Shown here piece by piece: positions 9,847 to 37,739 of a DNA stretch of 37,739 nt. Position 1 is the stretch's first letter, and the number at the start of each line of letters is the position of its first letter. The notes beneath the pieces are model-generated. The model was not told the origin of the DNA and made no database searches. It saw nothing but the letters and a program-made list of their open reading frames with translations. A program made the translations under genes and the position numbers. The stretch is from positions 1-37,739 of the forward strand of contig MGUG01000057.1 of the NCBI GenBank assembly GCA_001799845.1, given 5' to 3'. This DNA comes from Elusimicrobia bacterium GWC2_64_44. Its GTDB lineage: Bacteria > Elusimicrobiota > Elusimicrobia > Elusimicrobiales > UBA9959.

Positions 9847-11697
9847 CTACTGCCAGAACCAGTACAGCACGACCCAGTCGGTCCCGTCGCTCTGCAGCAT
9901 GACGGCTTCCCCCTGAAGGTTGCTAAGCGACTGGGAGTCGGATCCCTCCACTAGCCCGCCGGCCGAATCGATTATTACGCTGTTAACCGCGCTCAGCCTC
10001 TTCACCACGTAAATGCGCCCCGCGGTCAAAGCCGCGTCCGGGAGTGTTACGGTGACATCATCGCCGGATGTGTCGGCCAGTATGGTGTAGTCGGTCTCTT
10101 TTGCCGTATCGGAGGCGGCTATCCGCCTTATTGGCAGGGACAGTGACCCGCCTATGCTTACTACGGAGTTGGGGCTGGCGGTACCAAGCCCGGTACGGCC
10201 GGCGGCCACCACCAGGCCGGAAGAGACGGCGACACCTGGCACAGTGGGGCTTATCGAAGTAAAAGAAACAGAGCCGCTTAAAGCCTGGGTCGAAGCAAGG
10301 GCGGCATAGTCCGCCAGGCTGGCGTTATGGGCGGCCGTGGTCTCCAGATCGGCCAGGTCGGCCGCGGCGGCATAGCCGGCGAGGGCGTGGTTCCCCCAGG
10401 TAAAAGCGGAGTTCCAGTTACCCGCGTTGGCCAGCGGCGCGGTGGAAGTTATGACCGCGTTCAGGTCGGCGCGCAGCGTGGCCGTGGCGGAAGCTATGGT
10501 GGCGTTAGCCGCGGAGTTGACCCCGGTAAGCTGCGAGCCGTCCCCGATGAATCGGGCGGCCATGTTAACGCCCGTGGCTGAAACGGAGGAGACCACGGTC
10601 CCCGCGCTGTTGCGCCAGAGCTGGGCCATATCGGAGGCGGCGGAGCCGGCCGCCACTACGTCCAGGCGGCCCTGCGCGGGCGAGGCCGTGCCTATGCCGA
10701 CATAGCCATTGGCGACCGCGAGCGTGGAACCGCCCACGGAGAAGGCGCCGCCGGACACGGTCAGCGTGGAGACATTGTGGATGGAATACCCGGCCATATC
10801 CAGCGCCTGGGAAGCGGTATGATTGCCGAGGTTATCCACCGATGTCCAGGAGCCCTTGCAATTATCGGCTATGCACAGGCCGGCCGAGGCGTTGATGCTG
10901 CCGCCCTGCACGTCCAGCTTGTAGCCGGGGGCGTCAGTTCCCACCCCCACCCTGCCGCCGACGGCGGTCAGCACATTGCCGCCGACGGAGAACTCGCCGC
11001 CGGTCACGGTCAGGGTAGAGCCGGAGAGCGTCAGTTGACCGGTCATGGTATCGCCGGCCCTGGCCACCACTCCCGCGGGCGCGGGGAGGTTGGAAAGCAG
11101 CGAGGCGTCCGCGGCTGGCAGCCGGCCCGTACCGTCGAGCCGCACCAGCTGGTCGGTTCCGTTGAAACCGCCGTAGAAAGCGCCGGTGCTGATAGAGACC
11201 CGGCTGTCGCTGAATTTGCCGGAGCCGATGGCCGCCGTGGAGAGAACGACATGAGAATCGTTCACGGAGCCGGCCCCGATGCTGGAGGCCGGTATTTCGG
11301 CGTCGGGGGCCAGGGCCTGCGCCACCAGGGCGTACGGGGCCGAGACCATCTCCTGGCGCGGGGACAGCGGCACGCCGTCCACGGTCATCTCCACGTAGCG
11401 CGCTCCCGAGAAGGCGGCTGTGGAGAGCGCGGCGGGCGTGCCGGCCGAAAGCACCGCGCTGAAAACGCCGTTGGAGAGCGTCAGGGCCTGCGTCTGGCTG
11501 GTCCAGACCAGATTGCCGCCCGAGACGGCGTCATAGATCTTGAAGATGAAGTTCTTGGAGCCCTCGGCGGGCAGCCCGCTCTCGTCCAGGCGGCCCTGGA
11601 AGTTTATCTTCAGCGGCGCCCCCGCGAATAGCGGGCCGGAGCACAGCCCGAGCGCCGCGGCCAGGACCAGGAAACGAAAAAAAGAAGTCTTGTTCAT
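9847..11697 (-). CDS. Secreted fibre-like surface protein
   Basis: A 616-residue exported protein with a signal peptide (about residues 1-25, ending SGPLFAG). The first mature domain (about 28-130) starts LKINFQGRLDESG and continues with FKIYDA, LVWTSQ and PRQEMVSAPYALVAQAL; the same domain opens the protein at 35511, so the two are paralogues. The rest is low-complexity, A/S/G/T/V-rich, with recurring short blocks such as LTVTGGEFSVGGN, LTVSGGAFSVGGS, VGIGTASP and GDGSQLTGV, which look like the beta-helical shafts of fibres or tail-fibre-like proteins. A C-terminal block (about 530-616, ending WVVLYWFWQ) looks like a compact tip. It is probably displayed on or released from the cell surface. 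GGAGA lies before the ATG; it is the last gene of the PorV operon and a strong terminator follows. Exact function unknown. Confidence 0.82.
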   Translation of the reverse strand: MNKTSFFRFLVLAAALGLCSGPLFAGAPLKINFQGRLDESGLPAEGSKNFIFKIYDAVSGGNLVWTSQTQALTLSNGVFSAVLSAGTPAALSTAAFSGARYVEMTVDGVPLSPRQEMVSAPYALVAQALAPDAEIPASSIGAGSVNDSHVVLSTAAIGSGKFSDSRVSISTGAFYGGFNGTDQLVRLDGTGRLPAADASLLSNLPAPAGVVARAGDTMTGQLTLSGSTLTVTGGEFSVGGNVLTAVGGRVGVGTDAPGYKLDVQGGSINASAGLCIADNCKGSWTSVDNLGNHTASQALDMAGYSIHNVSTLTVSGGAFSVGGSTLAVANGYVGIGTASPAQGRLDVVAAGSAASDMAQLWRNSAGTVVSSVSATGVNMAARFIGDGSQLTGVNSAANATIASATATLRADLNAVITSTAPLANAGNWNSAFTWGNHALAGYAAAADLADLETTAAHNASLADYAALASTQALSGSVSFTSISPTVPGVAVSSGLVVAAGRTGLGTASPNSVVSIGGSLSLPIRRIAASDTAKETDYTILADTSGDDVTVTLPDAALTAGRIYVVKRLSAVNSVIIDSAGGLVEGSDSQSLSNLQGEAVMLQSDGTDWVVLYWFWQ

Positions 11698-11712
11698 AAA
11701 TTGTCTCCGCTT

Positions 11713-12246
11713 CTACCAGATGACCATCAGCTTGCCGGTATTCTTCTGCGAACCGCTCTTGACGGTGAAAACGTAAACCCCGCTGACCACGGCCTGGCCG
11801 CGGGAATTCTTCAGGTCCCAATCCAGGGTCTCCCCCGCGTCGTTCTTCTCCAGCGCGCGCACCAGCTCTCCGCTGACGGTATAGACGCGCACCGCGGCCG
11901 CGCGCGTCAGCCCGGTAAAGGTTATCTTGGTGTGCCCATCGGACTGCCTGAACGGCACCGGGTAACAATGCGCGGCGCCCAGGTCCCCGCGCGCGGACGC
12001 CGTTACCAGCAGCAGCGCCGGCGCGCCGCCGGTGATAACGCTGAAGGCTCCGCCGGCCGGCGAGGAGGAGGAAAAAGAGGGCCCGCCCAGGTTCATGGCG
12101 GAGAGAGAGAAACTCCCCCCCGACGCGGGGCCGCCCCCGGAGAGCGAGACCACGAACGGCACGCTGTAGGCACCTCCGCTCAGCGCGGCGGCCGCGCGGG
12201 GCGCGGAGGCCGTGGATAGCGTCAGGAGCAGTAAAAATATTTTCAT
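11713..12246 (-). CDS. Small secreted protein with FlgD/CHU_C-like C-terminal domain
   Basis: A 177-residue protein: signal peptide (about 1-20, MKIFLLLLTLSTASAPRAAA), a glycine/serine-rich segment with LSGGAYS and SPAGGAFSVITGG motifs (about 21-75), and a C-terminal Ig-like domain (about 90-177) with VRVYTVSGELVRAL, LDWDLKNSRGQAVVSG and GVYVFTVK, ending KLMVIW. This type of end resembles FlgD Ig-like and type IX secretion sorting domains (established for other families; assignment here is by motif). The end of the Fn3 protein at 29926 is clearly the same fold (IYDLSG, WDGKANGRAVSGG, YVYQIR, LLVIR). The ATG at 12246 is 2 nt after the PorV-like stop; a longer open frame upstream was rejected because it lacks a signal peptide. 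It may be a minimal cargo for the neighbouring PorV-like barrel. Confidence 0.82.
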   Translation of the reverse strand: MKIFLLLLTLSTASAPRAAAALSGGAYSVPFVVSLSGGGPASGGSFSLSAMNLGGPSFSSSSPAGGAFSVITGGAPALLLVTASARGDLGAAHCYPVPFRQSDGHTKITFTGLTRAAAVRVYTVSGELVRALEKNDAGETLDWDLKNSRGQAVVSGVYVFTVKSGSQKNTGKLMVIW

Positions 12247-12248
12247 GA

Positions 12249-13646
12249 TCAGCGCGGCAGCTTTAACAGCGCCTCCAGGATAGCTCCCTTCACGGGCTCG
12301 GCCTCTTCGTTTTTCAGCGCCTCTTCCAGGGCGCTCCGGCAAACGTCGCCGCCGCGCGCGGCCAGGGCAGGCGCGGCCAGCCTGCGCACTTCCGCGTCCT
12401 CGTCGCGCAGGGCGCCTGCCAGCAGCAGCGGGGCCCTGTCGGAGGAGCAGCGCGCGAGCCCCCGCAGCGACGCCGCCTTCCAGTCCCGGCGGCCGGAGGC
12501 CAGCATGGCGGAGAAATGTTCCAGCACCCTGGGGCTGCAGTCCGCGGCCAGGGACTCGGCGGCGGCGGCGGCCTTCTCGCCGTCGGTCCCGTACAGGGCG
12601 TCTATATCGGCGGAAAATTTATCTCCGGGGGCCATAGGCGGCTCTTCTTTAGCCGGCGCCTCCGCAGGCGCGCCGGCCTGCGGCTTGTCGAAGCGGTACG
12701 AAAGGCCGAATTTATGGATATTCCCGAAGTCGTAGGTGGAGCCAAAAGAGTAGTCCAGGCGAACCCCGCGCCCGAAGCGCTCCGGCACGTTCAGGCCCAG
12801 GCCGAAGGTAACGCCGTTAGCGGCGTCGCCGAAAGAAGTGTACCCCACCCTGAGGGCGAGGGCGCCGTAGAGCGTGTTCTCCAGGCCGGCGGAAAAATAG
12901 CCGGGGCCGTCCTCCGGGAAGGCCGCCTCCGCGGACAGCAGCGCGGCCACCGGCCGGCGGCCGGCGCGGTAAGAAAGTCCTGCCTTGAACTTCCTGGCCG
13001 GCCTGGCGCCGGGCCCGTCAAAAGCCAGGCGGCTGGCGGCCGCGTTCTCCGCGGCCGCGCCGAGGGCCAGGCCGTCCAGGCCGGTAACCAGCAGCAGGCC
13101 CGCGTCCAGCGCGGCCCCGCCGGCACTGCTGCCGTCGAGGTTCTCGGTCAGGTACTTGCCGGCCAGGCCGTAGCGCAGCGACGGCAGGAAAGCCAGGCCG
13201 GTTTTGAAGCCGCCGCCGTAGCCCAGGCTGACGGCCGCGCCGTAGGCAGACACCTTGCCGGTCGGGTTATCCTGCGCGTCATAGGAATTAAAAGCGCCTA
13301 CCTGTAAATAATTGAGCCCCAGGCCCCAGGCGCCGCCGGCCGCGGGCAGGGCCACGGCGGCGGCATGCTGGGAGATGCCCGAGTAATAGTTGTTGTAGGA
13401 ATAGTCCAGCGCCGGCGACTCCAGCAGGGAAAGGCCGGCCGGGTTGTAGTAGACGGCGCCGGGAGCGCCGCCCACGGCCGTGAAGGCCCCGCCTAGCGCG
13501 GACTCCCTGGCCCCTACCGGTATCTTCAGGAAATTGGCTGCGGTGGTGCCCGGCCCGGAGGCATAAGCCGCCGCGGCGCTCAGGCAGAGCGCGCCGGCCG
13601 TCAATAGGCTGGCGTGAACCAGGGGTTTTAGTGATCGCACTTTCAT
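12249..13646 (-). CDS. PorV/PorQ-like outer-membrane barrel with C-terminal HEAT repeats
   Basis: A 465-residue exported protein. After a signal peptide (about 1-30) it has the family hallmark FLKIPVGARESALGGAFTAV then VYYNPAGLSLLE, followed by alternating amphipathic strands typical of a beta barrel (to about 330, ending KFGLSYRFD). A proline/alanine/glutamate-rich linker leads to HEAT-like helices (about 360-465, with RDEDAEVRRLAAPALAARGG). PorV carries cargo with C-terminal sorting domains in type IX secretion; this family is wider than that system, so the role is inferred. The barrel-plus-HEAT fusion is unusual and puts a protein-binding module, probably periplasmic, on the barrel. The start has no clear ribosome-binding site; TATAAT lies only 2 nt before the ATG, so the GTG at 13640 is a possible alternative. 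Confidence 0.85.
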   Translation of the reverse strand: MKVRSLKPLVHASLLTAGALCLSAAAAYASGPGTTAANFLKIPVGARESALGGAFTAVGGAPGAVYYNPAGLSLLESPALDYSYNNYYSGISQHAAAVALPAAGGAWGLGLNYLQVGAFNSYDAQDNPTGKVSAYGAAVSLGYGGGFKTGLAFLPSLRYGLAGKYLTENLDGSSAGGAALDAGLLLVTGLDGLALGAAAENAAASRLAFDGPGARPARKFKAGLSYRAGRRPVAALLSAEAAFPEDGPGYFSAGLENTLYGALALRVGYTSFGDAANGVTFGLGLNVPERFGRGVRLDYSFGSTYDFGNIHKFGLSYRFDKPQAGAPAEAPAKEEPPMAPGDKFSADIDALYGTDGEKAAAAAESLAADCSPRVLEHFSAMLASGRRDWKAASLRGLARCSSDRAPLLLAGALRDEDAEVRRLAAPALAARGGDVCRSALEEALKNEEAEPVKGAILEALLKLPR

Positions 13647-13657
13647 TGATTATATAA

Positions 13658-13729: not shown

Positions 13730-14932
13730 TCAGTAGGACAGCTGGTAGGCCAGGCCGAAGCTGTTGCCGGTATAGTTGTACGGCATGTATTTCTCGAACT
13801 TGTTGTTCGAGTTGGCCACGATCAGGGAACCGAACAGCCGCACCATGGCCACCTCGTTGATGCGCTTGCGGATGGAGCCGGTCAGCGTGGTCATGGTGTT
13901 GACCTGCTTCTCGGTGGTGAAGTCGTTGTCCGCGTTGCGGGCGTAGCGCTTGTCGTAGGCGCGGCGCTGTATGCTGAAGGCGCCGCCTATGGCCCACTTG
14001 CTGGTGATGTTCAGGTCCACCGGCACGGAGAGGTTCATTTCCTTGAAGTTATAGTAGCTCGCGGCGAACTCCGGAGCGGTGTCGCCCAGGAACTTGTACT
14101 TCATGAAGTTCTGGTTGGACTCGTGCATGGTATAGGAGACCATGGGGTACATCTCGAAGATCCACAGCCGGTGGTGGAAGCCGAAGTCCAGCATGGTGTC
14201 GGTGTCCTTCTGCTTGGTGTCGCCGTAGACGCCGCTGGCCGCCACGACCTTCTGGTTCTTGTAGTTCTGCACGGTGTAGGTCACGCCGCCGAAGAACTTG
14301 TTCCACGCGGGGCGCAGCGAGACCTGGCCCATGGTCTGGTCCTGCAAGCCGCCGTTGACGCTGGCCCTGTTGGCCGGGTCCTGGAACTCGCGCAGCAGGT
14401 CGGTGTAGTTCGGGAACGTCACGGTGCGCAGCAGGTACTGCAGCGTGACGTAGCCGTTCTTCCCCTCGTCGAAGATATAGTCGGCCGCCAGCTGGCCGCC
14501 GGCGGAGTTCATGTTGTACAGGCCGTTCTTCCAGGCCTCGTTGGCGCCGGTGCGGCTGTAGCCGCGGTTAAAGCCGACTCCGGGCCGGACCCGGATGCGG
14601 TCGGTCACGCTGCGGCGGTACTCCAGGTTGAACCCGTGCGCCATGGACCGGTCGGTGAACTGCTTGCTGTCCTGCGGGGCGAAGCCCGCGCCGCTGTAGT
14701 TGAAGTTATACAGCGCGAACAGCTGGTCCTTCTGGGTGATCTTCGACAGCAGGCCCACCTGGGTGTTGATGTTGCCGCCGCTGAAGATATTGCCCTCAGA
14801 CGGCAGGAAGGCCGCCTCGGAGAGGGTCATGTCGAAGAACGGCGTGAAGATCTTGGAATCCTCCGCCGAGGCCGCGCAGAGCCTGCCGGCCAGGCCGGCG
14901 GCGATGAAAGCGCTTAAAAGAAGTTTTTTCAT
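13730..14932 (-). CDS. Predicted outer-membrane beta-barrel protein (400 aa)
   Basis: Not recognised as a named family. It has a signal peptide (about 1-20, MKKLLLSAFIAAGLAG) and then many alternating strands with aromatic residues and tight turns, for example QLFALYNFNYSGAGF, YVTLQYLLRTVTF and FEMYPMVSYTMHES, and it ends in LAYQLSY, the aromatic C-terminus used by barrel-assembly machinery. The strand content suggests a barrel of more than ten strands. It is the third gene of an operon behind the FecR-domain protein and the 251-residue protein, with 10 nt to the latter, and a strong terminator follows. A channel or surface structure working with the FecR-domain protein is possible, but no substrate is indicated. 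Confidence 0.75.
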   Translation of the reverse strand: MKKLLLSAFIAAGLAGRLCAASAEDSKIFTPFFDMTLSEAAFLPSEGNIFSGGNINTQVGLLSKITQKDQLFALYNFNYSGAGFAPQDSKQFTDRSMAHGFNLEYRRSVTDRIRVRPGVGFNRGYSRTGANEAWKNGLYNMNSAGGQLAADYIFDEGKNGYVTLQYLLRTVTFPNYTDLLREFQDPANRASVNGGLQDQTMGQVSLRPAWNKFFGGVTYTVQNYKNQKVVAASGVYGDTKQKDTDTMLDFGFHHRLWIFEMYPMVSYTMHESNQNFMKYKFLGDTAPEFAASYYNFKEMNLSVPVDLNITSKWAIGGAFSIQRRAYDKRYARNADNDFTTEKQVNTMTTLTGSIRKRINEVAMVRLFGSLIVANSNNKFEKYMPYNYTGNSFGLAYQLSY

Positions 14933-14942
14933 TTATCGGTCC

Positions 14943-15698
14943 TTAGAAGTTCAGGTGGAAGTTCCAGACGGGGTGGAACACCAGCACGCCCTCTGGGAAG
15001 ATGTTCAGCCCGAGCTCGAAGTATTTGCCGTACCAGCTCACCTTGCTGGAGAAGGTCTGCGTGTTCAGGCCGTAGTTGAGCTGTATGCTCCACAGCTTGT
15101 TGATGCCCTTGGGGGTCTCGATGCCGGCTATGAAGAAGTCGTCCTTGAAGCCGGTGTCGAAGCTGTTGACCTTGGTGCCCAGGAACTCGGGCTCCTGGCC
15201 GGCCTTGAAGTCCAGCTTGGCCTTGAGCACGCTGCGCTTGTAGCCCCAGAAGGTGCGCACGCGCGGGCTGACCGAGGTGCTCATGATGGCGCCGGCGTAA
15301 TAGCCTCCGAACTTGGCGCTATCCACGGTCTCGGAGTCCTTGGTGGCCATCTTGGCCGCCAGCATGTCCCAGTAGCCGCCGATAAGGTCCAGCTGCGGCA
15401 CGCCGGGGGCTATGCGGCCCTCGCCGTGCAGCCGCACCTTGAGCGACGCGTTGGTGTACGTCATCGGTATGGTGGTCGGGAAGAGGGAGGTCTGTATGCC
15501 GAAGCTCTTGCCGGGCGGCAGCGGGGTGGTGGCTTCCAGGTCCTGCTGGAAGTCGTAGAAGAAACCCGCGGGGTTGGCGATGATCTCGCCGGCTATCTGC
15601 ATGCCCTTCGACTCCCAGTCTATGGCGGCGAAGGCGGGGCTTTTTACCAGAAAAAGCGCCAAAAGGATAAGTATAAGCTTTTTCATTATTTTTCCCAT
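14943..15698 (-). CDS. Predicted outer-membrane protein (251 aa)
   Basis: A signal peptide (MKKLILILLALFLVKSPAFA) is followed by an N-terminal segment (AIDWESKGMQIAGEIIANP) and strand-rich sequence ending in an aromatic C-terminus (VWNFHLNF), which fits a small outer-membrane barrel. I did not recognise a named family. The annotated ATG overlaps the TAA of the FecR-domain gene (TAATG); a second ATG 12 nt further in, at 15686, gives the same signal peptide and may be the real start. It lies between the FecR-domain protein and the 400-residue barrel in one operon, so the three probably act together in the envelope. Confidence 0.75.
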   Translation of the reverse strand: MGKIMKKLILILLALFLVKSPAFAAIDWESKGMQIAGEIIANPAGFFYDFQQDLEATTPLPPGKSFGIQTSLFPTTIPMTYTNASLKVRLHGEGRIAPGVPQLDLIGGYWDMLAAKMATKDSETVDSAKFGGYYAGAIMSTSVSPRVRTFWGYKRSVLKAKLDFKAGQEPEFLGTKVNSFDTGFKDDFFIAGIETPKGINKLWSIQLNYGLNTQTFSSKVSWYGKYFELGLNIFPEGVLVFHPVWNFHLNF

Positions 15699-17515
15699 TA
15701 CTCCCCGAGGTTCGTGATAGCGGGCAGCATGCGCTGCACCGCGGCGACCATCAGGTCGGGTATGAAGACCAGGTCCACATTGGTGCCGGCGCCCTTGTAC
15801 GCGAAGTAGTCCGTATCGCTGATGTCGGCCTTGGCCAGCGCGCTGGTGGTAAGGCCGGCCTCGGAATCGGTATTGGACTGCTTTATGTACATGACGCTCT
15901 GGATGGCGTTATCCTTGAGCAGCGTGAACGGGTCGGAGGACGAATTGGTGAAGTCGCCCGCGCTCCGTATCTGGCCGCCGTTGCCTATAACGTAGTTCTC
16001 CTTGGCGAACCACATGTAGCTGCTGTGGGCGTTGCCCACGTCGTACATGTCGGCCTGGTACTGCGTCAGCGGCGCGTTGTCCGGCCTGTTCTGGGGCTCG
16101 GAGTAGCTGACGGCGGTGTTGGTCTTTATCGCCCAGAGGACGTTGCTGGAAGCGCCGTTTACCGTAGTAGCGGTAACCGCAGACCGGTCTGCATTGGTGT
16201 ATTTAAGCGTGCCGTTGCCCGCTGAAGCGTCGGCCACCTGCAGGTTAGAGATACGGTTAAGGCCTTCGATGGCCGAAACCCCTGCCTCGTCCTTCAGCAC
16301 CCCGGTCACTATGACGTTACGGTCATCGGGATTGGAGGCCAGGTAAGGCGTGGTGCCGTCCACGGTGAGCACCCAGGGGTTATTCACCAGCATGTCCCGG
16401 GGCGCGTCGTATTTGTAGCCCTGGGCTATAAAGAATATCTCGCTGGCGTCGGTCCGGTTGGCCATCACGAAAGAGGCCCAGTCCGGCTTTATCTCGTTGC
16501 CGTTGAAGAAACTCGGCCATTCCTCGATGCGGGCGGGCAGGTCCCTATTGAAGGCCATCGTCATCTGCATGTAGTCCAGCCGGTTGGTAACGCCCTGCGC
16601 GCCGTTGTAAGTGAAGCCAGCGCGTCCCACTCCGGTAGCGGTGCCGGCGTTGTTGTAGACCGGGCGCTTCACGAGGTTGAAGAACTGTATCTCGTTGCCG
16701 TTGGGCCGCATCATGCGCTGGTCCACGCGGACCAGGTTGCCGTGCGCGTCGGTCAGGGTGCGGCCGGCCTCGAGGTCGGACTCCTTGACCACGTTGAGAA
16801 AGTTCTTCACGGCGTTCTCGGCGTTGGTGGTAGCCTTGGCGAAATCCTTTATCTGCGCCCTGTCGTTCTCTTTCTGCTGCAGCCCCTTCTGGCGCTCCTC
16901 GGCCTTCAGGCCGGGGTTCCAGTTCTCCAGGGCCTCGCGCTCAACCTTGGCCGTCAGCAGCATGGGCTTGTTGGCCTTGCCTTCCTCGGCGGTGGTGAGG
17001 CCCTGGCCCTGCGGTATGCTGAACTGCGTGGGGCCCTTGGCCGGCGGGATGGTGAACTTGAACTTCACCTCGCCGAACAGCACCTGCAGGTCCATCTTGC
17101 CGCTCTCGTCGGAGCCCATCACGAACTCGGTGCCGCGCACGGCGCAGACGGCCACCGGGGTGCGCACCTCGAACTTTTCCTTGCGCATCAGGTGCGGCAC
17201 GCGCACCTTGATCTTGCCGAACACCAGCGCCAGGCGCGAAGCCAGCGTCTGCCGCTGCTCGATCTCCAGGCTGGAATTCTCTTTCAGCCAGACCTTGCTC
17301 TTGTTGGGCATCAGCAGCACGGCCTGGCCGCCGGCGGCGGTGCGTATGCCGCCGCCTTCGGCTATTTCCATGTTTTCGGTGGCGGCGGTCCACTGGCCCT
17401 CGCGGGCCGGGCGGACTTCCACGGCGCCGCTCAGGGAAAGCAGTTTGGCCTCTCCGGCCAGAACTACCCCCGGCAGCGCTATCAAAAAGAAGAACCACAG
17501 GATTTTTGTCCTCAT
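15698..17515 (-). CDS. Exported FecR-domain protein (605 aa)
   Basis: The ATG at 17515 gives a clean signal peptide (MRTKILWFFFLIALPGVVLA); a longer open frame upstream is rejected. The FecR-like domain follows (about 20-150: LLSLSGAVEVRPAREGQW, IRTAAGGQAVLLMPNKSKVWLKENSSLEI, KFEVRTPVAVCAVRGTEFVM). In the classic system FecR is an anti-sigma factor regulator with an inner-membrane helix, but this protein has neither that helix nor a neighbouring sigma factor, so here the domain probably acts in the periplasm or at the surface. A charged helical linker (about 205-260) leads to a long domain of unknown type (about 260-605) with NG/D-rich turns. It is first in the operon with two outer-membrane proteins and is probably translated from a leaderless mRNA. 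Confidence 0.82.
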   Translation of the reverse strand: MRTKILWFFFLIALPGVVLAGEAKLLSLSGAVEVRPAREGQWTAATENMEIAEGGGIRTAAGGQAVLLMPNKSKVWLKENSSLEIEQRQTLASRLALVFGKIKVRVPHLMRKEKFEVRTPVAVCAVRGTEFVMGSDESGKMDLQVLFGEVKFKFTIPPAKGPTQFSIPQGQGLTTAEEGKANKPMLLTAKVEREALENWNPGLKAEERQKGLQQKENDRAQIKDFAKATTNAENAVKNFLNVVKESDLEAGRTLTDAHGNLVRVDQRMMRPNGNEIQFFNLVKRPVYNNAGTATGVGRAGFTYNGAQGVTNRLDYMQMTMAFNRDLPARIEEWPSFFNGNEIKPDWASFVMANRTDASEIFFIAQGYKYDAPRDMLVNNPWVLTVDGTTPYLASNPDDRNVIVTGVLKDEAGVSAIEGLNRISNLQVADASAGNGTLKYTNADRSAVTATTVNGASSNVLWAIKTNTAVSYSEPQNRPDNAPLTQYQADMYDVGNAHSSYMWFAKENYVIGNGGQIRSAGDFTNSSSDPFTLLKDNAIQSVMYIKQSNTDSEAGLTTSALAKADISDTDYFAYKGAGTNVDLVFIPDLMVAAVQRMLPAITNLGE

Positions 17516-17522
17516 ATTATGA

Positions 17523-29534: not shown

Positions 29535-29924
29535 ATGTACAAGATTTTAATAGTAGACGATGACCCGATAATCTCGAAAGTGCTGGCCAGCATTTTCAGG
29601 TCCGAAAAATACGAGGTCACCTCATGCCGCACCGGAGAGGACGGCCTTCTGGCCGCGCAGAGAGAGCTGCCCGACCTGGTATTGCTGGATATTAACCTCC
29701 CCGACGGCAACGGCCTGGACATATGCAAGCGGTTGAAAAGCAATCAGCGCCTCAAACATATCCCTGTGATCCTGATAACCGGTGACGCCACCTCGGTGGA
29801 GAACAAGGTGCAGGGCATAGAGAACGGCGCGGACGACTATGTGCTGAAGCCGTTCATCGCCGACGAACTGATAGCCCGGGCCGCCGGGATCATAAAGCGC
29901 ACACTTAAATTCGGCTCACATTAA
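29535..29924 (+). CDS. Single-domain response regulator (CheY-like), first gene of cluster B
   Basis: A 129-residue receiver with intact residues: acidic pair in ILIVDDDPI, phosphoacceptor Asp52 (LVLLDINLPDG), Thr82 (ILITGDA) and Lys105 (YVLKPF). There is no DNA-binding domain. GGAGG lies 5 nt before the ATG. The next gene starts 1 nt after its stop, so it is co-transcribed with the Fn3 protein, the PorV-like barrel and, 4 kb on, the histidine kinase, which could phosphorylate it. That pairing within one operon suggests control of surface-protein export or function, at the protein level since no output domain is present. Confidence 0.92.
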   Translation: MYKILIVDDDPIISKVLASIFRSEKYEVTSCRTGEDGLLAAQRELPDLVLLDINLPDGNGLDICKRLKSNQRLKHIPVILITGDATSVENKVQGIENGADDYVLKPFIADELIARAAGIIKRTLKFGSH

Positions 29925-29925
29925 C

Positions 29926-32190
29926 ATGAAAAAGGCCGCCCTCCTCTTCCTCGCGCTCCTGCCCGCCGCGTTTACGCAGCGGGCCGGCGCCGTTGGGGAA
30001 ATGAGCGGCGGGTCGGTGGCGCTGTCCCGCTGGGCGGCCAACTCTCAGGGCCAGGTGAGCTCCGGCGCGGGCTTCAATCTCTACTCCTCGGTAGGGGAAA
30101 CGGCGTTTTCCAGCGCGGCGGCCGGCGGCCTGGCGGTCAACCCCGGCTACATGAAGGTGGCGGCCCAGCCCGGCACCATAGTTTCAATAACCGCCGTCAC
30201 CAAGGCCACCGGTACGCTGGAGCTGGCCTGGGCGGCCCCCGGCGCCGACGGTTTCCTGGGCGGCATCACCGGCGGCGTCTACCGGCTGGATTATTCCAGC
30301 GACCCGCTGCACTCCTTCTCCCCCACCACTTTCCTGACGGAGTTCTCCACCTCGGTGACCGCGGGCTCGGCGCAGCGCCTGGACATCCCCGGCCTGCAGG
30401 CCAACACCACTTATTACACTAAAATTTATTTTGGCGACTCCGGGAAGATGATAGCGGCCGACTCCGCGCTGAGCGCCGAATCCACGCTGGCCGATCTGCC
30501 GGTAGACCCGTTCTTCTCCGCGGTTAACGGCTGCGACGCCACCATAAGCTGGGCCCTCCCCGGCAGCGGCGCCCGCGGCTACAGCACCGACTCCTCCACC
30601 ACCAGCTTCGGCGTGCTGTCGCCCGGCGGCGAAGTCAGCACCGTGGGCACCCCCGACGGCCTGCAGGCGAACCTGGTCATCAGCGGCCTGGCCCCCGGCA
30701 GCACCTATTACTTCCGCGTAGCCAGCCTCAACTGGCAGGGCAACAAGAACTTCACCACCCTGATCTCCACCGTCACGCCCCGCACGCTCTGCCGGTTCCC
30801 CGTCTCCGGCCTAAGCGCCTTCGGCGACGCGCTCTCCCGCGCCGTAACCCTCACCTGGGTCAACCCGGCCTCGCCCTCGCTGGAAGGCGTGGTGATAATG
30901 CTGAGCACCAGCGCGGCCCCCGCCCCGCTGCCCGACGGCTCCGTGCTGACCCCCGGCCAGGTGCTGGCCGACGGCTCCATAGTGAAGTCCACCCAGGCCG
31001 CCGCGCCGCTGGGCGACTCGGGCCTTACGCTCGACACCACCTACTTCTACCACCTGATGACGCGCTACACCGGGCCCGTCTACTCGGTGGGCGTTTCCAC
31101 CAACGTCTTCCTGGACCTGCCCCCGATGGCGCCGGCCGGCCTGACGGCGGACCTGAACGCGGACGGCACGGCCGTGACGCTGAACTGGAACGGGGTGACC
31201 AGTAACCTCGACGGCTCGGCTTTCAAGGCGCCGGCGGCCCCCATGGGCGTAGAGCTGGCCCGCTACAGGGTAGAAAAATCCTCTTCCGTGGGCATGCCCT
31301 CCTGGGTAGCCGTGGCCACCCTGCCGGCCAGCGCGCAGAGCTACGTTGACGCCGTAGCGCCCGGCGACCCGGCCTATATCTATCGCATCGCCTCCTTAGA
31401 CTCGCTGGGCACCGAGGAGCGCGCGATGGCGGTGGACACCCGCCGCGGCGTGTACGTCTTCGCCCCCGACCAGGTAGCCCGCCTGGAGATCCCTGCAAGC
31501 CTCAGCGGAGAACTGCTGGCGGCCAATAGCCCCTACGGTTCCAACATCCTGATCCGTTCGGTCAACGAGGGCTCCGACGCCCCCAGGAGCATCTACAACT
31601 CCGTGCGCTTCGAGGCCGTGCGGACCCCTGGCAACGAGGTGCTGGAGAATTTCAGCTTCTCGCGCCCCGAGCTTACCGTGGCCGTGCGCTACGAGGTCTC
31701 CGGCGGCCGCGTGGTACCCTCCGGCGCCGGCGCCCAGGCCGTCACCGCCAGCGACGCCGCCCAGCGCCTCGGCCTCTACTGGAACAACGGCGAGAAGTAC
31801 GTGAAGCTCTACGGCAAGATAGACACCGTCAACCAGCTGGCCAGCGTGCAGAGCTCCATGCTGGGCAGTTACCAGATACGCTCGCTCTACCGCGATTCGG
31901 GCGTGCACTTCGACATTTCGAACCTCAGCAACCGCGCCATCACCCCCAACGGCGACGGGCTCAACGACTCCGCGGTCTTCACTTTCGACAACCCGCGCGA
32001 CTCGGCCTTCTCCGGCAAGATCTACGACCTGAGCGGGGCCTTCGTGGCGGACATGACCCCGGGGCCGGTGGTCAACAGCCTGGTCTGGGACGGCAAGGCC
32101 AACGGCAGGGCGGTCTCGGGCGGGGCTTACGTGTACCAGATACGGTCGGAGGAGCGCACCTTTAACGGTACGCTGCTGGTGATAAGATGA
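29926..32190 (+). CDS. Secreted Fn3-type protein with CHU_C-like C-terminal domain
   Basis: A 754-residue exported protein. Signal peptide (about 1-22); an N-terminal segment with SGGSVALS, SSVGETAF and AVNPGYM (a motif found, in shorter form, in the 177-residue protein at 11713); then several fibronectin-III-like modules, seen as ITAVTKATGTLELAWAAP, ISWALPGS, GLAPGSTYYFRVASLN, VTLTWVNP and VTLNWNGV. The last 83 residues start ITPNGDGLND and continue IYDLSG, VWDGKANGRAVSGGAYVYQIR and LLVIR, matching the CHU_C/FlgD-like end domain that serves as sorting signal in type IX secretion (known for other phyla; here inferred). The start is 1 nt after the receiver stop, and it overlaps the PorV-like gene by 4 nt, so both should be made together. 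Confidence 0.85.
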   Translation: MKKAALLFLALLPAAFTQRAGAVGEMSGGSVALSRWAANSQGQVSSGAGFNLYSSVGETAFSSAAAGGLAVNPGYMKVAAQPGTIVSITAVTKATGTLELAWAAPGADGFLGGITGGVYRLDYSSDPLHSFSPTTFLTEFSTSVTAGSAQRLDIPGLQANTTYYTKIYFGDSGKMIAADSALSAESTLADLPVDPFFSAVNGCDATISWALPGSGARGYSTDSSTTSFGVLSPGGEVSTVGTPDGLQANLVISGLAPGSTYYFRVASLNWQGNKNFTTLISTVTPRTLCRFPVSGLSAFGDALSRAVTLTWVNPASPSLEGVVIMLSTSAAPAPLPDGSVLTPGQVLADGSIVKSTQAAAPLGDSGLTLDTTYFYHLMTRYTGPVYSVGVSTNVFLDLPPMAPAGLTADLNADGTAVTLNWNGVTSNLDGSAFKAPAAPMGVELARYRVEKSSSVGMPSWVAVATLPASAQSYVDAVAPGDPAYIYRIASLDSLGTEERAMAVDTRRGVYVFAPDQVARLEIPASLSGELLAANSPYGSNILIRSVNEGSDAPRSIYNSVRFEAVRTPGNEVLENFSFSRPELTVAVRYEVSGGRVVPSGAGAQAVTASDAAQRLGLYWNNGEKYVKLYGKIDTVNQLASVQSSMLGSYQIRSLYRDSGVHFDISNLSNRAITPNGDGLNDSAVFTFDNPRDSAFSGKIYDLSGAFVADMTPGPVVNSLVWDGKANGRAVSGGAYVYQIRSEERTFNGTLLVIR

Positions 32191-34169
32191 CGACTCACGG
32201 CGGAAAGGAACGGGCTCGCGCCCTCGCGGCGGCCATACTGGCCGTCACGCTCCTTGCCGCCCCCGCGCGCGCCGCCTTCGACGACCTGGGCGCCGGCGCC
32301 CGCGCCCCGGGCATGGGCAACGCCTTCACCGCCATCGCCGACGACGTCTACGCCATCTACTACAACCCGGCCGGCCTGGCGCTGCTCGACAGGCCGACGT
32401 TCGCGGCGTCCCACACCCAGCACCTGGCCGGACTCTCCGACGGCTCCGGGCTCAACACCTCCTTCCTCGGCTACGCCCACCCGCTCAAGTGGGACCGCGG
32501 CACCGTGGCCGCCGGGGTGCAGAACTTCAGCCTGGACGGCTCCTTTTACAACGAGCAGGCATACTACCTTTCCTACGCCAGGGAAGTACCGGTGTCCCTG
32601 GAGCTCTACGACCTGTTCTGGGGCATCAACATAAAGAACCTGCGCCGCTCCTTCGGCAGCCTGCCCGAGGCCTCCAACGCCATGAACGGCCTGACCGCCA
32701 CCGGCCTGGCGGACCCGGTGCTCTCCGGCAAGCGCTCGGTCAACGTCTTCGACGCCGACCTCGGGCTGCTTTACAAGATCGGCAAGGGCTATACCGCCGG
32801 CCTGGAGCTGATGCACCTCGCCACGCCCAACGTGGCCTTCTCTCCCGCGGACACGGACAAGCTGCCGCTGCGCACCAAGCTGGCGCTGGGCTACTCCAGC
32901 ATGCTTTCCAACATCGCCGCCCAGTACGAAACGGCTGCCAGCCCCACGGGCACGCGCGACCACCGCCTGACCATGGCCGCCGAGCGCTGGTTCCCCTGGC
33001 TGCTGGTAGGCAACATAGGCGCGCGCGCCGCCCTGAGCGTGGGCAACCGCGATTTCCGCCAGGCGTCCGCCGGCCTCTCCTACCGCACCGGCCGCATCGG
33101 CGTGGATTACGGCTTCATCCTGCCCATAAACAGCATCGCCTCCACCTACGGCACGCACCGCCTGAGCTTCTCCATACGCTTCGGCCCGGTGCAGGAGGAG
33201 GAGGAATCCGCGAAGCTGGTGCTCGCCGCTATGCGCGCCCTGAAGTCCGGCAAGGCCCCCGAGCTGGCCGCCTCCCCGGCTTCCCCCTCCTACGCCGGCG
33301 CCCTCCGGGCCCGCCTGGACCGCGCGCGTTTCCTGGAGGCCGAGGGCCGCTACCCGGAGGCCGCCCTGGAGATCTCCGCCGCGCTGGAGCTGAGCCCCAA
33401 AGACGAACCGCTGCTCCGGCACCATTCGCGCCTGAACCTAGTCTCCGCGCAATTGGGCAGGCTGGAGGCCCACAAGACCGACAGCGTGCAGTCGGCGCTG
33501 TACCGCTCCGCGCTGGCCTTCCTCACCGGCTCCGACGAGGAAGCCGTCGCCCAGGCCGCGGCGGCCCTGGCCCTGCGGCCCGCCAGCCGGCAGATCTCGG
33601 ATTACCTGGCGCAGCTTGAGCTCACCACCGGCCTGCAGGCCCGCAAGAGCGACCTGCCCCCCGATATCGCCGTGAAGGTGCAGAACCTGCTGACCATGGC
33701 CTCAGAGGCCCTCGAAGACTCCCGCTACGACGAGGCTGCCCTGATGAGCGAGGCCGTGCTCAAATACCAGCCCGAGAACCTGACCGCGCTGGAGAACCTC
33801 GGCATCTCCTACTTCGCGCAGGGCGAGTACCAGAAGTCGCTCGACGCCTGGAAGAAAACCTACCGCCTCGAGACCGGCAAGGCCCGCCAGACCATGATAA
33901 AGTCCCAGATCGCTTCCGTGGAGAACGTGGCGAGGCAGCAGAAGCGCAAGACCGACGCCACCGCCGCGGGCGCAGCCCCCAGGCCGGCCGGCCCTGCCGG
34001 CCCCTCCGCCCCCGCCCAGGCGCAGAAGCTTTACAGGGAAGGCCTCGACCTCTACAGCTCCGGAGAGCTGCTCAAGGCCCAGGTCATATTCCAGAAGGTG
34101 CTGGAGGCCGACCCCGGCAACATCCCGGCCGCCAACGCGATAAAGCGCATACAGCGCGAGCTGAGGTAA
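32187..34169 (+). CDS. PorV-like outer-membrane barrel fused to TPR repeats
   Basis: A 660-residue exported protein with a signal peptide (about 1-29). The barrel part (about 30-335) carries the PorV-family block DLGAGARAPGMGNAFTAIADDV then IYYNPAGLALL and ends with strands RLSFSIRFG. From about 375 it has helical TPR-like repeats, for example RARFLEAEGRYPEAALEISAALELSP, ALENLGISYFAQGEYQKSLDAWKK and KLYREGLDLYSSGELLKAQVIFQKVLEADPGN (in parts). PorV homologues bind sorting-domain cargo; the adjacent, overlapping gene makes such a cargo. The TPR half mirrors the HEAT half of the PorV-like protein at 12249: both barrels carry a helical repeat domain that could recruit partners. Confidence 0.87.
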   Translation: MTTHGGKERARALAAAILAVTLLAAPARAAFDDLGAGARAPGMGNAFTAIADDVYAIYYNPAGLALLDRPTFAASHTQHLAGLSDGSGLNTSFLGYAHPLKWDRGTVAAGVQNFSLDGSFYNEQAYYLSYAREVPVSLELYDLFWGINIKNLRRSFGSLPEASNAMNGLTATGLADPVLSGKRSVNVFDADLGLLYKIGKGYTAGLELMHLATPNVAFSPADTDKLPLRTKLALGYSSMLSNIAAQYETAASPTGTRDHRLTMAAERWFPWLLVGNIGARAALSVGNRDFRQASAGLSYRTGRIGVDYGFILPINSIASTYGTHRLSFSIRFGPVQEEEESAKLVLAAMRALKSGKAPELAASPASPSYAGALRARLDRARFLEAEGRYPEAALEISAALELSPKDEPLLRHHSRLNLVSAQLGRLEAHKTDSVQSALYRSALAFLTGSDEEAVAQAAAALALRPASRQISDYLAQLELTTGLQARKSDLPPDIAVKVQNLLTMASEALEDSRYDEAALMSEAVLKYQPENLTALENLGISYFAQGEYQKSLDAWKKTYRLETGKARQTMIKSQIASVENVARQQKRKTDATAAGAAPRPAGPAGPSAPAQAQKLYREGLDLYSSGELLKAQVIFQKVLEADPGNIPAANAIKRIQRELR

Positions 34170-34176
34170 AGGATCT

Positions 34177-35514
34177 ATGAAGATACGGACCAAGATAACT
34201 TTGCTCCTCTCCGGCGTGATAGCGCTGGTGGTAGCCGGCATGATACTGGCCCTGGTCGCGCTGGAGCGCCGCCAGATCGCCAAGGCGGAGAGCGAACGCG
34301 TCTCCTCGGTGATGGCCAGCATAACCCGGGCCGCGGGCGAATCCCTGAGCCTGCGCGACGACCTGCTGCTGCTGAGCTACCTGCGCTTCCAGATGAAGCA
34401 GGCGCCGGAGATAGAGATCTGCCTGGTGACCAGGAACGGCTACACCACCATCCTGGGCAAAGTCAGCAGCGACCTGGAATACAGGACCGTCTCGGCGTCT
34501 GTCGCCGGGGAGACGGTAACGGTGCAGGCGGGCTTCTCCAAGGAATTCCTGCGTGAGGAACTGCGCCAGGAGAACATGGCGCTGCTCGCGGTCTCCCTCG
34601 GGATGGCGGCTATCGGCCTGGGCCTCGGCTTCGCGGGCTCAGTGTTCATCAGCCGCAAGCTGTCGGAGCCGGTGGCGGCGCTGTCGGAAGCCGCCGGCAA
34701 GCTGGGCCGCGGCGACCTGGACGCCGAAGTGGCGGCGAACGGTTCCGACGAGATAGCGGAACTGGCCGGAGCGTTCAATAACATGGCCTCGAACATACGC
34801 GAGTCCGTCAGGGCCAAGGAAGACCTGCTGAGCACACTGACCCACGAGCTGAACAACCCGCTGGCGGGCTTAAAGGCCTACATCGCGCTGCTGCGCGACC
34901 CGGGCCGCATCGCCACCATCGCCGATACGCGCCAGGCCTACGAAACCATGGCCGACGCCGTGGGCCAGATGGAACTTACCCTTTCCAACGCGCTGGAACT
35001 TTTCAGGACCTCGGCCAAGCCGGAACTGGACCTGGAGATAGTAGACCTTGCGGCGATGGCCCGCGAGGTCACGGGGCTCTATTCCCCGGTCGCGCGCTCC
35101 AGCCACATCGATCTCAAGCTCGAGGCCCCGGAACACGGCCTCTCGATAACGGCCGACCGCAAGCTGCTGCGCCGCGTGATGGTAAACCTGGTCTCCAATG
35201 CGCTGAAGTACACGCCTGAGCGCGGGGCCATCTCGGTAACCCTCTCGGTGAAAGACGGCTGCGCTGAATTCAGGGTCGCCGACAATGGCTACGGCATCAG
35301 CAAGGAAGACCAGAAGCATTTGTTCACCAAGTTCTACAGGGTGCGCGGCGCCGACGGCAAGAAGAGCAAGATCCCGGGCTCGGGCCTGGGCCTGGCGATA
35401 GTAAAGCAGGCGATAGAACTGCACCGCGGCAAGATCGGTGTTGAGAGCGAAAAAGGCAAAGGTTCCACTTTCATAGTTTTGCTGCCTAAGTCCGATTCCG
35501 GAGAATGCATATGA
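34177..35514 (+). CDS. Membrane sensor histidine kinase
   Basis: A 445-residue kinase. Two membrane helices (about 7-29 and 136-158) enclose a periplasmic sensor (about 30-135) of no recognised family; a HAMP domain follows (about 159-213); the HisKA domain has the phospho-accepting His223 in LTHELNNPLAG; the ATPase has the N-box NLVSNALKYTP (about 337-347), VADNGYGIS (about 368-375), LFTKFYRV and GSGLGLAIV. All catalytic motifs look intact. AGGAT lies before the ATG, 7 nt after the PorV-like stop, and the stop overlaps the next gene (ATGA). Its likely partner is the receiver at 29535 in the same operon; no DNA-binding partner is next to it. Confidence 0.93.
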   Translation: MKIRTKITLLLSGVIALVVAGMILALVALERRQIAKAESERVSSVMASITRAAGESLSLRDDLLLLSYLRFQMKQAPEIEICLVTRNGYTTILGKVSSDLEYRTVSASVAGETVTVQAGFSKEFLREELRQENMALLAVSLGMAAIGLGLGFAGSVFISRKLSEPVAALSEAAGKLGRGDLDAEVAANGSDEIAELAGAFNNMASNIRESVRAKEDLLSTLTHELNNPLAGLKAYIALLRDPGRIATIADTRQAYETMADAVGQMELTLSNALELFRTSAKPELDLEIVDLAAMAREVTGLYSPVARSSHIDLKLEAPEHGLSITADRKLLRRVMVNLVSNALKYTPERGAISVTLSVKDGCAEFRVADNGYGISKEDQKHLFTKFYRVRGADGKKSKIPGSGLGLAIVKQAIELHRGKIGVESEKGKGSTFIVLLPKSDSGECI

Positions 35515-37739
35515 GCACGATCAAAAAATTAACAGGATTTGCGCTGGCCGCGCTGTTTGCGCTGGCTCCATGGCCAGCGGCGGCCCAGACGGTGCCGGAC
35601 CGGGTAAGCTTCCAGGGGCGCCTGACGGACACGCTGAATAACCCGCTCGCGGGAAGTTATAACTTTAACTTCGCCATCTATCCTGCCCTGACCGGCGGCG
35701 CTCCGCTCTGGAGCGAAACGCAGAACGGCGTGACGGTGGCTAACGGCATCCTCGCCGCCGAACTCGGCGCCTCCTCCCCCATCCCCGCCGCGGTCTTCTC
35801 CGCGGCGCAGCGCTACCTCGAAATTACCGTGAACGGCACCACCCTTGCGCCCAGGCAGCGCCTGCTGGCCGTACCCTATGCCGTCAACGCGCAGACCTTG
35901 AACGGCAGGGACTATTCCGCCCTGGTGTCCACCGACGCGGCGCAGACCATCTCCGGCGCCAAAACCTTCACCTCTGACATCAGCATGGGCGGCAGCGCCC
36001 GCGTTACCAACCTGGCCGCCCCGGCCGCGGCCGGCGACGCCGCCACCAAGGCCTACGTGGACGCCGCCGCGGGCGGGTCTCAGACCTCCGTGCTGTCCTC
36101 CACCCAGGTTTTCACCGGGCAGAACACTTTCGTAAACCTGGTCTCGGCGTCTTCCGACGTCTACCTGTCCGCGGGCAGGATAAAACTGCAGGGCAACTTC
36201 GTGACCACGCCCGCCGGGCTGCTGGACGCCTCCATGCTGGCGAACACCGTGCCCAACACAGCGCTGGACGCCTCCTCGGTCACCAAGCGCGGCAACGCCT
36301 TCAACGCCGCCGGACAGCTGGTGCTCTTGGACCCCGCCGGCAGACTGCCCGCCATAGACGGCTCGCAGCTGATAAACCTGTCGGCCGCCAGCGTACTTAA
36401 CGGGGTTTACTCCACCGGTTCTTACGCCAACCCGCCCTGGCTTACCAGCCTGGCTACCGCCAAGATAGATCTTTCCACCGTTACCGCCGCGCTGGCGCTC
36501 AAGGCCGACATAGCGTCTACCCTTTCCAATACCGCCGCGGTGCCGCCAGGCCTGGTGGACCTCTCTACGGTTACCGCCGCCCTTGCGGGGAAGCTGCCGG
36601 CCAACGCAACCGTTTCACCGGCCTTAGTGAACCTGTCCACCGTTACAGCGGCGCTCGCGCTCAAGGCCGACGCCGCGTCTGCGCTTTCCAATACCGCCAC
36701 AGTGCCGCCAGGCCTGGTGGACCTTTCTACGGTTACCGCCGCCCTCGCGGGCAAGCTGCCGGCCGACGCTACCGTCTCACCGGCCTTGGTGAACCTGTCC
36801 ACCGTTACAGCGGCGCTCGCGCTCAAGGCCGACGCCGCGTCTGTGCTTTCCAATGCCGCCGCGGTGCCGCCTGGCCTGGTGGACCTCTCTACGGTTACAG
36901 CCGCCCTCGCAGGCAAGCTTTCCGCTTCGGCGGGAGTACCCGCGGCCCTGGTGGACCTATCCACCGTCACCGCCGCGCTGGCAGGCAAGCTGCCGGCCGG
37001 CGCCACGGTCCCCCCCGCCTTGATCAACCTTTCCACCGTTACCGCCGCGCTGGCAGGTAAACTATCCACTAGCGGCGACGGCTCCGGCCTGATCAACCTG
37101 ACCGCCTCCAATATATCCGGCGGCAAGCTGGGCGGTTCGGTAGTTGCCTCTTCCCTCGCCGTCAACAGCGTTTACGCTGAAAGTCTGCGCGACGGCGCGC
37201 TTACTTTCGCCAAGATAGGCCCGAACAGCTGCGGGCCCAACGAGGTGCTGCGCAGGAACGCCGCCAACACCGCCTGGATCTGCGGACCCGACGAGGGCGG
37301 CGTAGTGGGCACGGTAACTATCGCCCCGCCGGCGGCCCTTGCCGACAATTCCGCCAATGCCACCATCTTCATTAACGATACCGCAGGCGGCAACCTCCTG
37401 CAGCTGCAGCAGGGCGGCGCAGACAGGTTCGTAGTAAACAACGCCGGGCTGATAACGGCGGGAAGCCTAGGCGCCGCGCAGGTGGCAGCGGGGCCGCTGC
37501 CTTCCGGGGTTATCGCCTCTTCCGCCGCGGTCGGATCCGTCTACCCCGGAGCCATGAAGGCAGGTTCCTACGGCATTGATATCCTGGGCAACGCCGCCAC
37601 CGTTTCCAACGGCGTTTACACCACCGGCGCCTACGCCAACCCGGCGTGGCTGACTTCGCTGTCTACCGGCAAGATTGACCTCTCCACCGTTACCGCGGCT
37701 CTCGGCACAAAGCTCTCCGCTACCGGCGACGGTTCCGGC
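35511..37739 (+). CDS. Repeat-rich secreted fibre-like protein (3' end outside window)
   Basis: The ATG at 35511 overlaps the kinase TGA. The 743 codons present are open to the window edge. After a signal peptide (about 1-24) comes the same N-terminal domain as in the 9847 protein (VSFQGRLTD, FAIYPAL, PLWSETQNGV, PRQRLLAVPYAVNAQTL). The body holds tandem repeats of a DLSTVTAAL motif (about 320-520), then a VYAESLRDGAL/CGPNEVLRR block, and near the end a second copy of the NGVYTTGAYANPAWLTSL segment, which suggests a longer periodic shaft downstream. This is a beta-rich fibre or adhesin type by composition. It is the last visible gene of cluster B and probably the main surface product. The true length is unknown. 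Confidence 0.83.
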   Translation, partial: MSTIKKLTGFALAALFALAPWPAAAQTVPDRVSFQGRLTDTLNNPLAGSYNFNFAIYPALTGGAPLWSETQNGVTVANGILAAELGASSPIPAAVFSAAQRYLEITVNGTTLAPRQRLLAVPYAVNAQTLNGRDYSALVSTDAAQTISGAKTFTSDISMGGSARVTNLAAPAAAGDAATKAYVDAAAGGSQTSVLSSTQVFTGQNTFVNLVSASSDVYLSAGRIKLQGNFVTTPAGLLDASMLANTVPNTALDASSVTKRGNAFNAAGQLVLLDPAGRLPAIDGSQLINLSAASVLNGVYSTGSYANPPWLTSLATAKIDLSTVTAALALKADIASTLSNTAAVPPGLVDLSTVTAALAGKLPANATVSPALVNLSTVTAALALKADAASALSNTATVPPGLVDLSTVTAALAGKLPADATVSPALVNLSTVTAALALKADAASVLSNAAAVPPGLVDLSTVTAALAGKLSASAGVPAALVDLSTVTAALAGKLPAGATVPPALINLSTVTAALAGKLSTSGDGSGLINLTASNISGGKLGGSVVASSLAVNSVYAESLRDGALTFAKIGPNSCGPNEVLRRNAANTAWICGPDEGGVVGTVTIAPPAALADNSANATIFINDTAGGNLLQLQQGGADRFVVNNAGLITAGSLGAAQVAAGPLPSGVIASSAAVGSVYPGAMKAGSYGIDILGNAATVSNGVYTTGAYANPAWLTSLSTGKIDLSTVTAALGTKLSATGDGSG
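36399..37739 (+). repeat. Long-period repeat within the fibre gene
   Basis: The segment coding NGVYSTGSYANPPWLTSL (starting 36399) recurs as NGVYTTGAYANPAWLTSL (starting 37608), 1209 nt or 403 codons later, again followed by KIDLSTVTAAL. The pattern implies that the whole module, including the short repeats, may be repeated beyond the window. Confidence 0.7.
36468..37025 (+). repeat. Alternating 90-nt and 72-nt coding repeats
   Basis: Units of 90 nt (A, 30 residues: DLSTVTAALALKAD...PPGLV) and 72 nt (B, 24 residues: DLSTVTAALAGKLPA...PALV) alternate: A 36468-36557, B 36558-36629, A 36630-36719, B 36720-36791, A 36792-36881, B 36882-36953, B 36954-37025; a further partial copy follows. The A+B super-unit is 162 nt, and copies are nearly identical, pointing to recent duplication or gene conversion. 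Confidence 0.88.

Follow-up and report, generated by a model that had tools for sequence, protein, structure and literature searches.

Two gene clusters with fibre genes in an Elusimicrobia genome, probable carrier-cargo loci of a type 9-like export system

The window analysed here is a stretch of 37,739 bases forming the whole of contig C57 of Elusimicrobia bacterium GWC2_64_44 (G000; 3.09 Mb, 60 contigs, 90.2% complete). It carries two gene clusters, A on the minus strand and B on the plus strand, and in agreement with a preliminary description we found three parts in each of them: a barrel of the PorV/PorP family, a protein that closes with a C-terminal domain (CTD), and a fibre whose head is common to both clusters. 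Homology, co-location and conservation make it probable that A and B belong to a large set of carrier-cargo loci, which would serve a divergent, type 9-like SprA-carrier-CTD system for export and anchoring, with dedicated carrier-cargo pairs and recognition fibres. From the same evidence we infer an export path, a mode of anchoring, a docking of the fibres and a role in adhesion, predation or gliding.

Make-up of the two clusters

The features of the two clusters are the following.

12249..13646, minus strand: barrel of the PorV/PorQ family with a C-terminal HEAT extension, putative carrier (NF033709, HEAT_2)
11713..12342, minus strand: small secreted CTD protein, putative fibre adaptor or anchor (TIGR04183)
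11716..12000, minus strand: CTD of cluster A, T9SS type A-like (profile matches)
9847..11697, minus strand: fibre A, with a signal peptide-like start (judged by eye) and a MAT-like head (A5 profile, NF053851)
11308..11625, minus strand: FQGRL/MAT-like N-terminal domain of fibre A (profile matches)
29535..29924, plus strand: response regulator, receiver domain only (PF00072, 101.7 bits)
29926..32190, plus strand: secreted FN3 protein with a C-terminal CTD, putative cargo (fn3, CHU_C)
31903..32187, plus strand: CTD of cluster B, T9SS type B/CHU_C-like (profile matches)
32187..34169, plus strand: PorP/SprF- and PorV-related barrel with a C-terminal TPR extension, putative carrier (PF11751, TPR_2, NF033709)
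34177..35514, plus strand: HAMP histidine kinase (HATPase_c 107, HAMP 53.8, HisKA 39.4 bits)
35505..37739, plus strand: fibre B, with a MAT-like head and nine STVTAAL repeat units (A5, NF053851)
35586..35912, plus strand: FQGRL/MAT-like N-terminal domain of fibre B (profile matches)

The gene order of cluster A is barrel-HEAT, small CTD protein, fibre. Its barrel passed the cut-off of the PorV_fam model NF033709 (100.8 bits, cut-off 90), and the extension passed that of HEAT_2 (30.5 bits, cut-off 27.7). The true start of the small CTD protein is probably the ATG at 12246, which would give a product of 177 aa; its CTD scored 32.8 bits with the T9SS type A model TIGR04183, over the cut-off of 23, and remained below 27 with both Pfam Por_Secre_tail (20 bits) and FlgD_ig (23.9 bits). 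Fibre A, on which no CTD was found, reached 143.5 bits with the A5 profile, which includes fibre A itself, and 22.6 bits with NF053851, under the cut-off of 60. Counterparts of this cluster were detected in two further genomes, G019 (locus L120) and G023 (locus L129), with barrels 53.6% and 50.8% identical to barrel A, respectively, and with fibre-adjacent small CTD proteins (182 and 184 aa). Next in the window (13730-17629, minus strand) are the genes for a FecR-domain protein and then for two proteins lacking a confident Pfam match, which may be outer-membrane components of another system.

Cluster B is arranged as response regulator, FN3-CTD protein, barrel-TPR, histidine kinase and fibre, an order that is kept in G019 (locus L117, barrel on C25) with 71.8% identity for the barrel and 70.8% for the CTD protein. 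The FN3 domain scored over its cut-off (fn3, 37.3 bits), and the CTD passed the cut-off of CHU_C (27.8 bits, cut-off 27) and scored 27.5 bits with the type B model TIGR04131, under its cut-off of 35. Barrel B passed the cut-off of PF11751, PorP_SprF (41.1 bits, cut-off 22.3), and was under that of PorV_fam (59 bits, cut-off 90), its extension giving 39.8 bits with TPR_2. Fibre B is incomplete, as it has no stop codon and runs to the contig end at 37739, so that its tip is missing. It scored 156.6 bits with A5, a profile that includes fibre B itself, and with NF053851 it scored 35.3 bits as a whole protein and 41.1 for the head alone, both under 60.

The two clusters had been described as matching three-part sets. 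The parts indeed correspond, with E values in the local set of 2e-21 to 4e-21 between the fibre heads and of 1.5e-4 to 9e-4 between the CTDs, and 29.9% identity between the barrels, but the gene order differs between A and B, and cluster B additionally holds the response regulator and the histidine kinase. Likewise, a PorV-like barrel had been claimed for both clusters; this stands for A, where a PorV/PorQ-family barrel accompanies a type A-like CTD, whereas barrel B looks PorP-like and accompanies a type B-like CTD. In Bacteroidota, PorV is described as serving substrates of type A, and dedicated carriers resembling PorP as serving those of type B (PMC12635249; PMC9143113), and the two clusters thus follow the Bacteroidota pairing.

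Co-location of barrels, C-terminal domains and fibres

SprA-like, barrel, PorU, Gld and flagellar rod genes were tallied over 41 genomes; the CTD profile search covered 3 genomes, and the fibre search 10 of the 41. Two genomes were tallied whole, G000 and the relative G019, of 100% completeness. As 10 of the 11 rows of the CTD profile and all five rows of the fibre profile (A5) came from the window's own genome, G019 and G023 constitute the fairer tests.

After barrel fragments less than 1.5 kb apart had been merged, G000 and G019 held 24 and 28 barrels, 26 and 28 CTDs, and 7 and 10 fibres, respectively. A CTD on the same strand within 1 kb accompanied 18/24 barrels in G000 and 21/28 in G019 (39/52 together), and it was upstream (5') of the barrel in 17 and 20 cases (37 together). 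The chance expectation of such a neighbour is about 1.2-1.3% per barrel, a figure that assumes random gene placement, and since orthologous loci are not independent, the P values of co-location are too small. Partnerless within 2.5 kb on the same strand were 12 barrels and 12 CTDs of these two genomes.

The fibres behaved similarly, with a same-strand CTD within 6 kb of 7/7 (G000) and 9/10 (G019) and a same-strand barrel within that distance of 4/7 and 8/10. When the ORFs around the 25 fibres of G000, G019 and G023 were read, a CTD or a barrel lay within 3 kb of 24 of them (CTD 19, barrel 20, both 15) in several different arrangements, the fibre at L135 being the sole one without either neighbour. 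Small CTD proteins of 177-194 aa, comprising that of cluster A and eight others, were located beside or near fibres. Genome tallies and fibre neighbourhoods therefore rejected an independent scattering of the three families, which instead co-locate. The further suggestion that the fibre is the main product holds at best partly, as the two tallied genomes contain 17 fibres compared with 39 barrels that have a CTD within 1 kb.

A pair was also observed in a genome of another family (G033, L140:7337-12518), where a 1,397-aa CTD protein is encoded directly 5' of a barrel, so that the pairing extends beyond the window's genus. The CTD profile gave no match in G033, yet a local scan recovered this protein with 45 bits, and the genome-wide CTD counts may accordingly be low.

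PorV-family barrels were present in 41/41 genomes, over the family cut-off in 27/41. Among 48 distinct barrels scoring more than 100 bits in the local scan, 35 carried an extension of at least 60 residues and 10 one of at most 3 residues. The domains recognised in these extensions were TPR, HEAT, LysM or OmpA, and none of these was recognised in the barrels of L010 and L129. The repeat domain had been proposed to select the cargo. We rejected this role because the extension is variable and sometimes absent; moreover, in T9SS it is the extracellular loops of the carrier that are described as binding the CTD (PMC10994853). A fused anchor or coupler fits better, by analogy with PorE of P. gingivalis, a protein with a TPR domain that binds peptidoglycan and PorP (PMC9143113).

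An SprA-like translocon and the relation to type IX secretion

We agree with the earlier observation that no core T9SS gene is located within the window; a homologue of SprA is encoded elsewhere in the genome. The SprA model TIGR04189 gave matches at E <= 0.001 in 41/41 genomes, in 0/41 of them over its curated 200-bit cut-off. The SprA-like protein of G000 (1,794 aa) matched with 128.6 bits and E 1.4e-37 in three stretches that follow the order of the model, and it shares 95% identity with its counterpart in 'Elusimicrobiales bacterium isolate STC_50'. The structure predicted for a 95%-identical relative (pLDDT 77.3, pTM 0.53) models two thirds of the protein. In a Foldseek search with this model, four SprA chains came first with E values from 1.5e-52 to 2.6e-40, the next match being at 1e-5, and the alignments spanned 625-907 residues for SprA compared with roughly 250-340 for the remaining barrels listed. 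By VIA-align Z score, the SprA matches (18-19, rmsd 8-17 Å) were tied with ordinary porins (18.4 downward). No SprA match was obtained in Pfam, and sequence searches of the PDB returned neither SprA nor anything else relevant. For the 210 relatives of this protein that were found, 78 loci were kept, their titles being mostly Elusimicrobia or Elusimicrobiota and the rest mostly plain 'bacterium'. LptF/LptG genes adjoin the SprA-like gene in 20/21 loci (for instance L009:9787-17485) and, in a broader sampling, in 34/45 loci no shorter than 19 kb, a neighbourhood that could hint at another role.

The PorU peptidase, GldL, GldM and GldN were not found in the profile searches. The PorU model NF033707 matched in 29/41 genomes, in 0/41 over its cut-off, and no control genome exceeded this cut-off either. 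With at most 13 candidates scored per genome, the matches listed were all in the C-terminal part of the model (from position 949), and among these matches in the 41 genomes the peptidase region was unmatched. GldL, GldM and GldN were each detected in 0/41 genomes, and as no control genome gave a match either, divergent homologues are possible. An attachment to LPS seems unlikely, judging from the sortase peptidase not being found in a search in which no control genome was over the PorU cut-off.

The suggestion that the set represents a variant of type IX-like export in which the barrel is linked to the CTD was supported by the co-location data and by the CTD profile matches. The system most resembles two known branches of T9SS. 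It shares with the type B branch (SprB-SprF, PG1035-PorP-PorE) an SprA-like translocon, a FadL-type barrel adjoining the CTD protein, giant CTD proteins and a TPR module associated with the barrel, and differs from it in that the PorU peptidase, GldL, GldM and GldN were not found, with the controls silent, that SprA is under the family cut-off, that the TPR, HEAT, LysM or OmpA module is fused to the barrel, and that the phylum is another one. With the type A branch (PorV, PorZ/PorU-type CTD) it shares a barrel, that of cluster A, over the PorV_fam cut-off and a CTD over that of TIGR04183, again with no sortase peptidase detected by a model whose cut-off no control genome passed. Because PorU peptidase and the three Gld proteins were not found, we would file the system, on its sequences, as a variant sharing the SprA-carrier-CTD core and not as a canonical T9SS.

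In the mechanism that we propose, CTD proteins would enter the periplasm via Sec and pass into the SprA-like outer-membrane translocon encoded outside the window. The PorV/PorP-family barrel encoded next to each CTD protein would then take it over and keep hold of it on the cell surface, by analogy with the handling of CTDs by T9SS carriers (described in PMC10994853, PMC12635249 and PMC9143113), and the HEAT, TPR, LysM or OmpA extension, taken as periplasmic, would anchor or couple the carrier in the way suggested by PorE for PorP. Finally, the N-terminal head of the fibre would dock on the neighbouring CTD protein, and the fibre would present its variable tip for the recognition of surfaces or other cells.

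T9SS has been described as confined to Bacteroidota or to the Fibrobacteres-Bacteroidetes-Chlorobi group (PMC4793230, PMC11205867, PMC10994853), and in the portions available of open-licence papers on Elusimicrobia and type IX secretion, the mentions of type IX stand in reference lists. An SprA-carrier-CTD set conserved among Elusimicrobiota would extend this range and would test which parts of the system form its indispensable core.

Flagellar-type motor loci, fibres and the nature of the C-terminal domain

FliG_C was detected in 25/25 same-genus genomes, in 1-7 copies, and in 0/16 genomes of the other family, and the flagellar rod family PF00460 in 0/41 genomes, with four flagellate controls positive. 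All 23 FliG-like loci of seven genomes were read, revealing a barrel within 3.5 kb in 23/23, MotA in 21/23 (the two remaining stretches end too early) and a CTD in 16/23. Five loci of G000 (C7, C35, C5, C30 and C54) carry a FliF/FliG-like hybrid and MotA/MotB beside PorV-family barrels. The C7 locus is headed by a 6,036-aa CTD protein and contains, between CTD-barrel pairs, the hybrid followed by MotA and two OmpA/MotB proteins (L013:3771-7466); the hybrid combines in one protein a signal peptide-like start, a FliF-like part, a membrane span and FliG_C. The MotA of C7 matched PomA/MotA structures at E 7e-38, and the FliG of C35 matched T. maritima FliG at 2.4e-32. These loci thus resemble a flagellar motor in their FliG middle and C domains, PomA-like MotA and OmpA/MotB proteins, and are unlike it in the fusion of the signal peptide-like start, FliF-like part and membrane span to FliG, in the rod genes not being found and in the adjoining outer-membrane barrels.

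It is quite possible, and compatible with the carrier-cargo reading preferred here, that such FliF/FliG rotors and MotA/MotB stators replace GldLM in moving or ejecting carrier-adhesin complexes. In F. johnsoniae, carrier and adhesin are described as being transported on a track that the T9SS motor sets in motion (PMC12635249, PMC10994853), and by analogy the FliF/FliG-MotAB motors could move barrel-anchored adhesins. The motor cannot power SprA generally, because the other family has SprA-like proteins and barrels without FliG. Moreover, the FliG-linked loci are orthologous across genomes, so their counts are not independent, and the window showed neither a FliG nor a MotA gene. Under the motor reading, cluster B would be a static relative of a motor-linked carrier: the C30 locus encodes relatives of the cluster B barrel (34.5% identical) and kinase (29.8% identical) followed by a FliG-like gene, which places cluster B in the same locus family, itself without the motor. 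Somewhat more tentatively, flagellum-free FliF/FliG hybrid rotors with PomA-like stators may take the place of GldLM to move giant adhesins and fibres, constituting a gliding or cell-capture machine; if true, the type 9 system, the flagellar motor and MAT fibres would each have contributed parts to it. The loci with FliG/MotAB and barrel genes suggest that the flagellar motor may serve here without a flagellum. A search of the open-licence literature for FliG and MotA in non-flagellated gliders found nothing, and the available text of a paper on non-flagellar FliG/MotAB (PMC12505986) does not contain 'Elusimicrobi'.

One conserved cysteine was observed in the extension of FliG-linked barrels, in 6/6 orthologues of one group (L011, L122, L131, L165, L169, L174) and in 5/5 of a second (L157, L164, L167, L172, L175). 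No extension cysteine occurs in window barrel B or in the C35 and C7 groups. The conserved cysteine recalls the SprF-GldK disulfide and serves as a lead only, because motor-less barrels carry extension cysteines too (three in window barrel A, four in L129 and ten in L123).

Concerning the fibres, 21/27 heads matched NCBI Bdello_MAT_N at E <= 0.001, the two window fibres being under the cut-off of 60. No fibre was found in any of the 3 genomes of the other family that were searched. We consider it unlikely that the fibre is exported alone, in the manner of an autotransporter or a phage tail, with the CTD-barrel pair as a mere neighbouring system. Such self-export would account for the fibre ORFs, around the 25 matches in G000, G019 and G023, on which no CTD was found, and Bdellovibrio, the source of the described MAT fibres, is not known to have a T9SS. 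The proximity of a CTD or barrel to nearly every fibre, in several arrangements, argues against it, and the two window fibres gave no match in PHROGs, which speaks against a close phage origin.

Under the preferred reading, in which the fibres belong to the carrier-cargo loci, the gene order naturally suggests a putative CTD adaptor that would hold the fibre, because small CTD proteins adjoin the fibres or lie near them. MAT proteins are described as trimeric fibres with variable tips that act in prey recognition in Bdellovibrio, and the head is presumed to be seated on the cell surface, attached to a partner that the authors leave unidentified (PMC10769870). The gene neighbours of the fibres name candidates for this partner. 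The Elusimicrobiota fibres are like those of Bdellovibrio in having an apparently related N-terminal head, a long repetitive protein and several copies per genome, and unlike them in that the window heads score below 60 bits and that the fibres are linked to CTD and barrel genes.

Regarding the CTDs, profile matches above 15 bits ended at most 6 residues from the C-terminus in 42/57 cases and within 17 residues in the remaining 15, one match in a cut-off frame having been dropped (57/58). Searched against the PDB, the profile of 11 CTDs matched PorZ (1.2e-7) and PorU (9.3e-6) ahead of FlgD (6e-4), with the Bacteroidota CTD chains 8glj and 8glk (0.003 and 0.04) ranking below FlgD. FlgD_ig was under its cut-off in CTD A and unlisted for CTD B, in a genome without detectable flagellar rod genes. 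AlphaFold models of the two window CTDs had a pLDDT of 42 and were left unused. That the CTDs are ordinary FlgD-like or CHU_C Ig domains, the barrels FadL-like transporters and the SprA-like protein an envelope component, for example in lipid export, is very improbable: FlgD matches exist and LptF/LptG adjoin the SprA-like gene, but the C-terminal position of the CTDs, the one-sided order of CTD and barrel genes, the better matches to the CTD regions of PorZ and PorU and the structural match to SprA speak against it, and plain FlgD domains were rejected on the first three of these grounds. Giant CTD proteins were also observed, with open frames of 4,569-13,463 aa at four CTD matches of G000 (C7, L137:1057-19167; C31; C35; C48).
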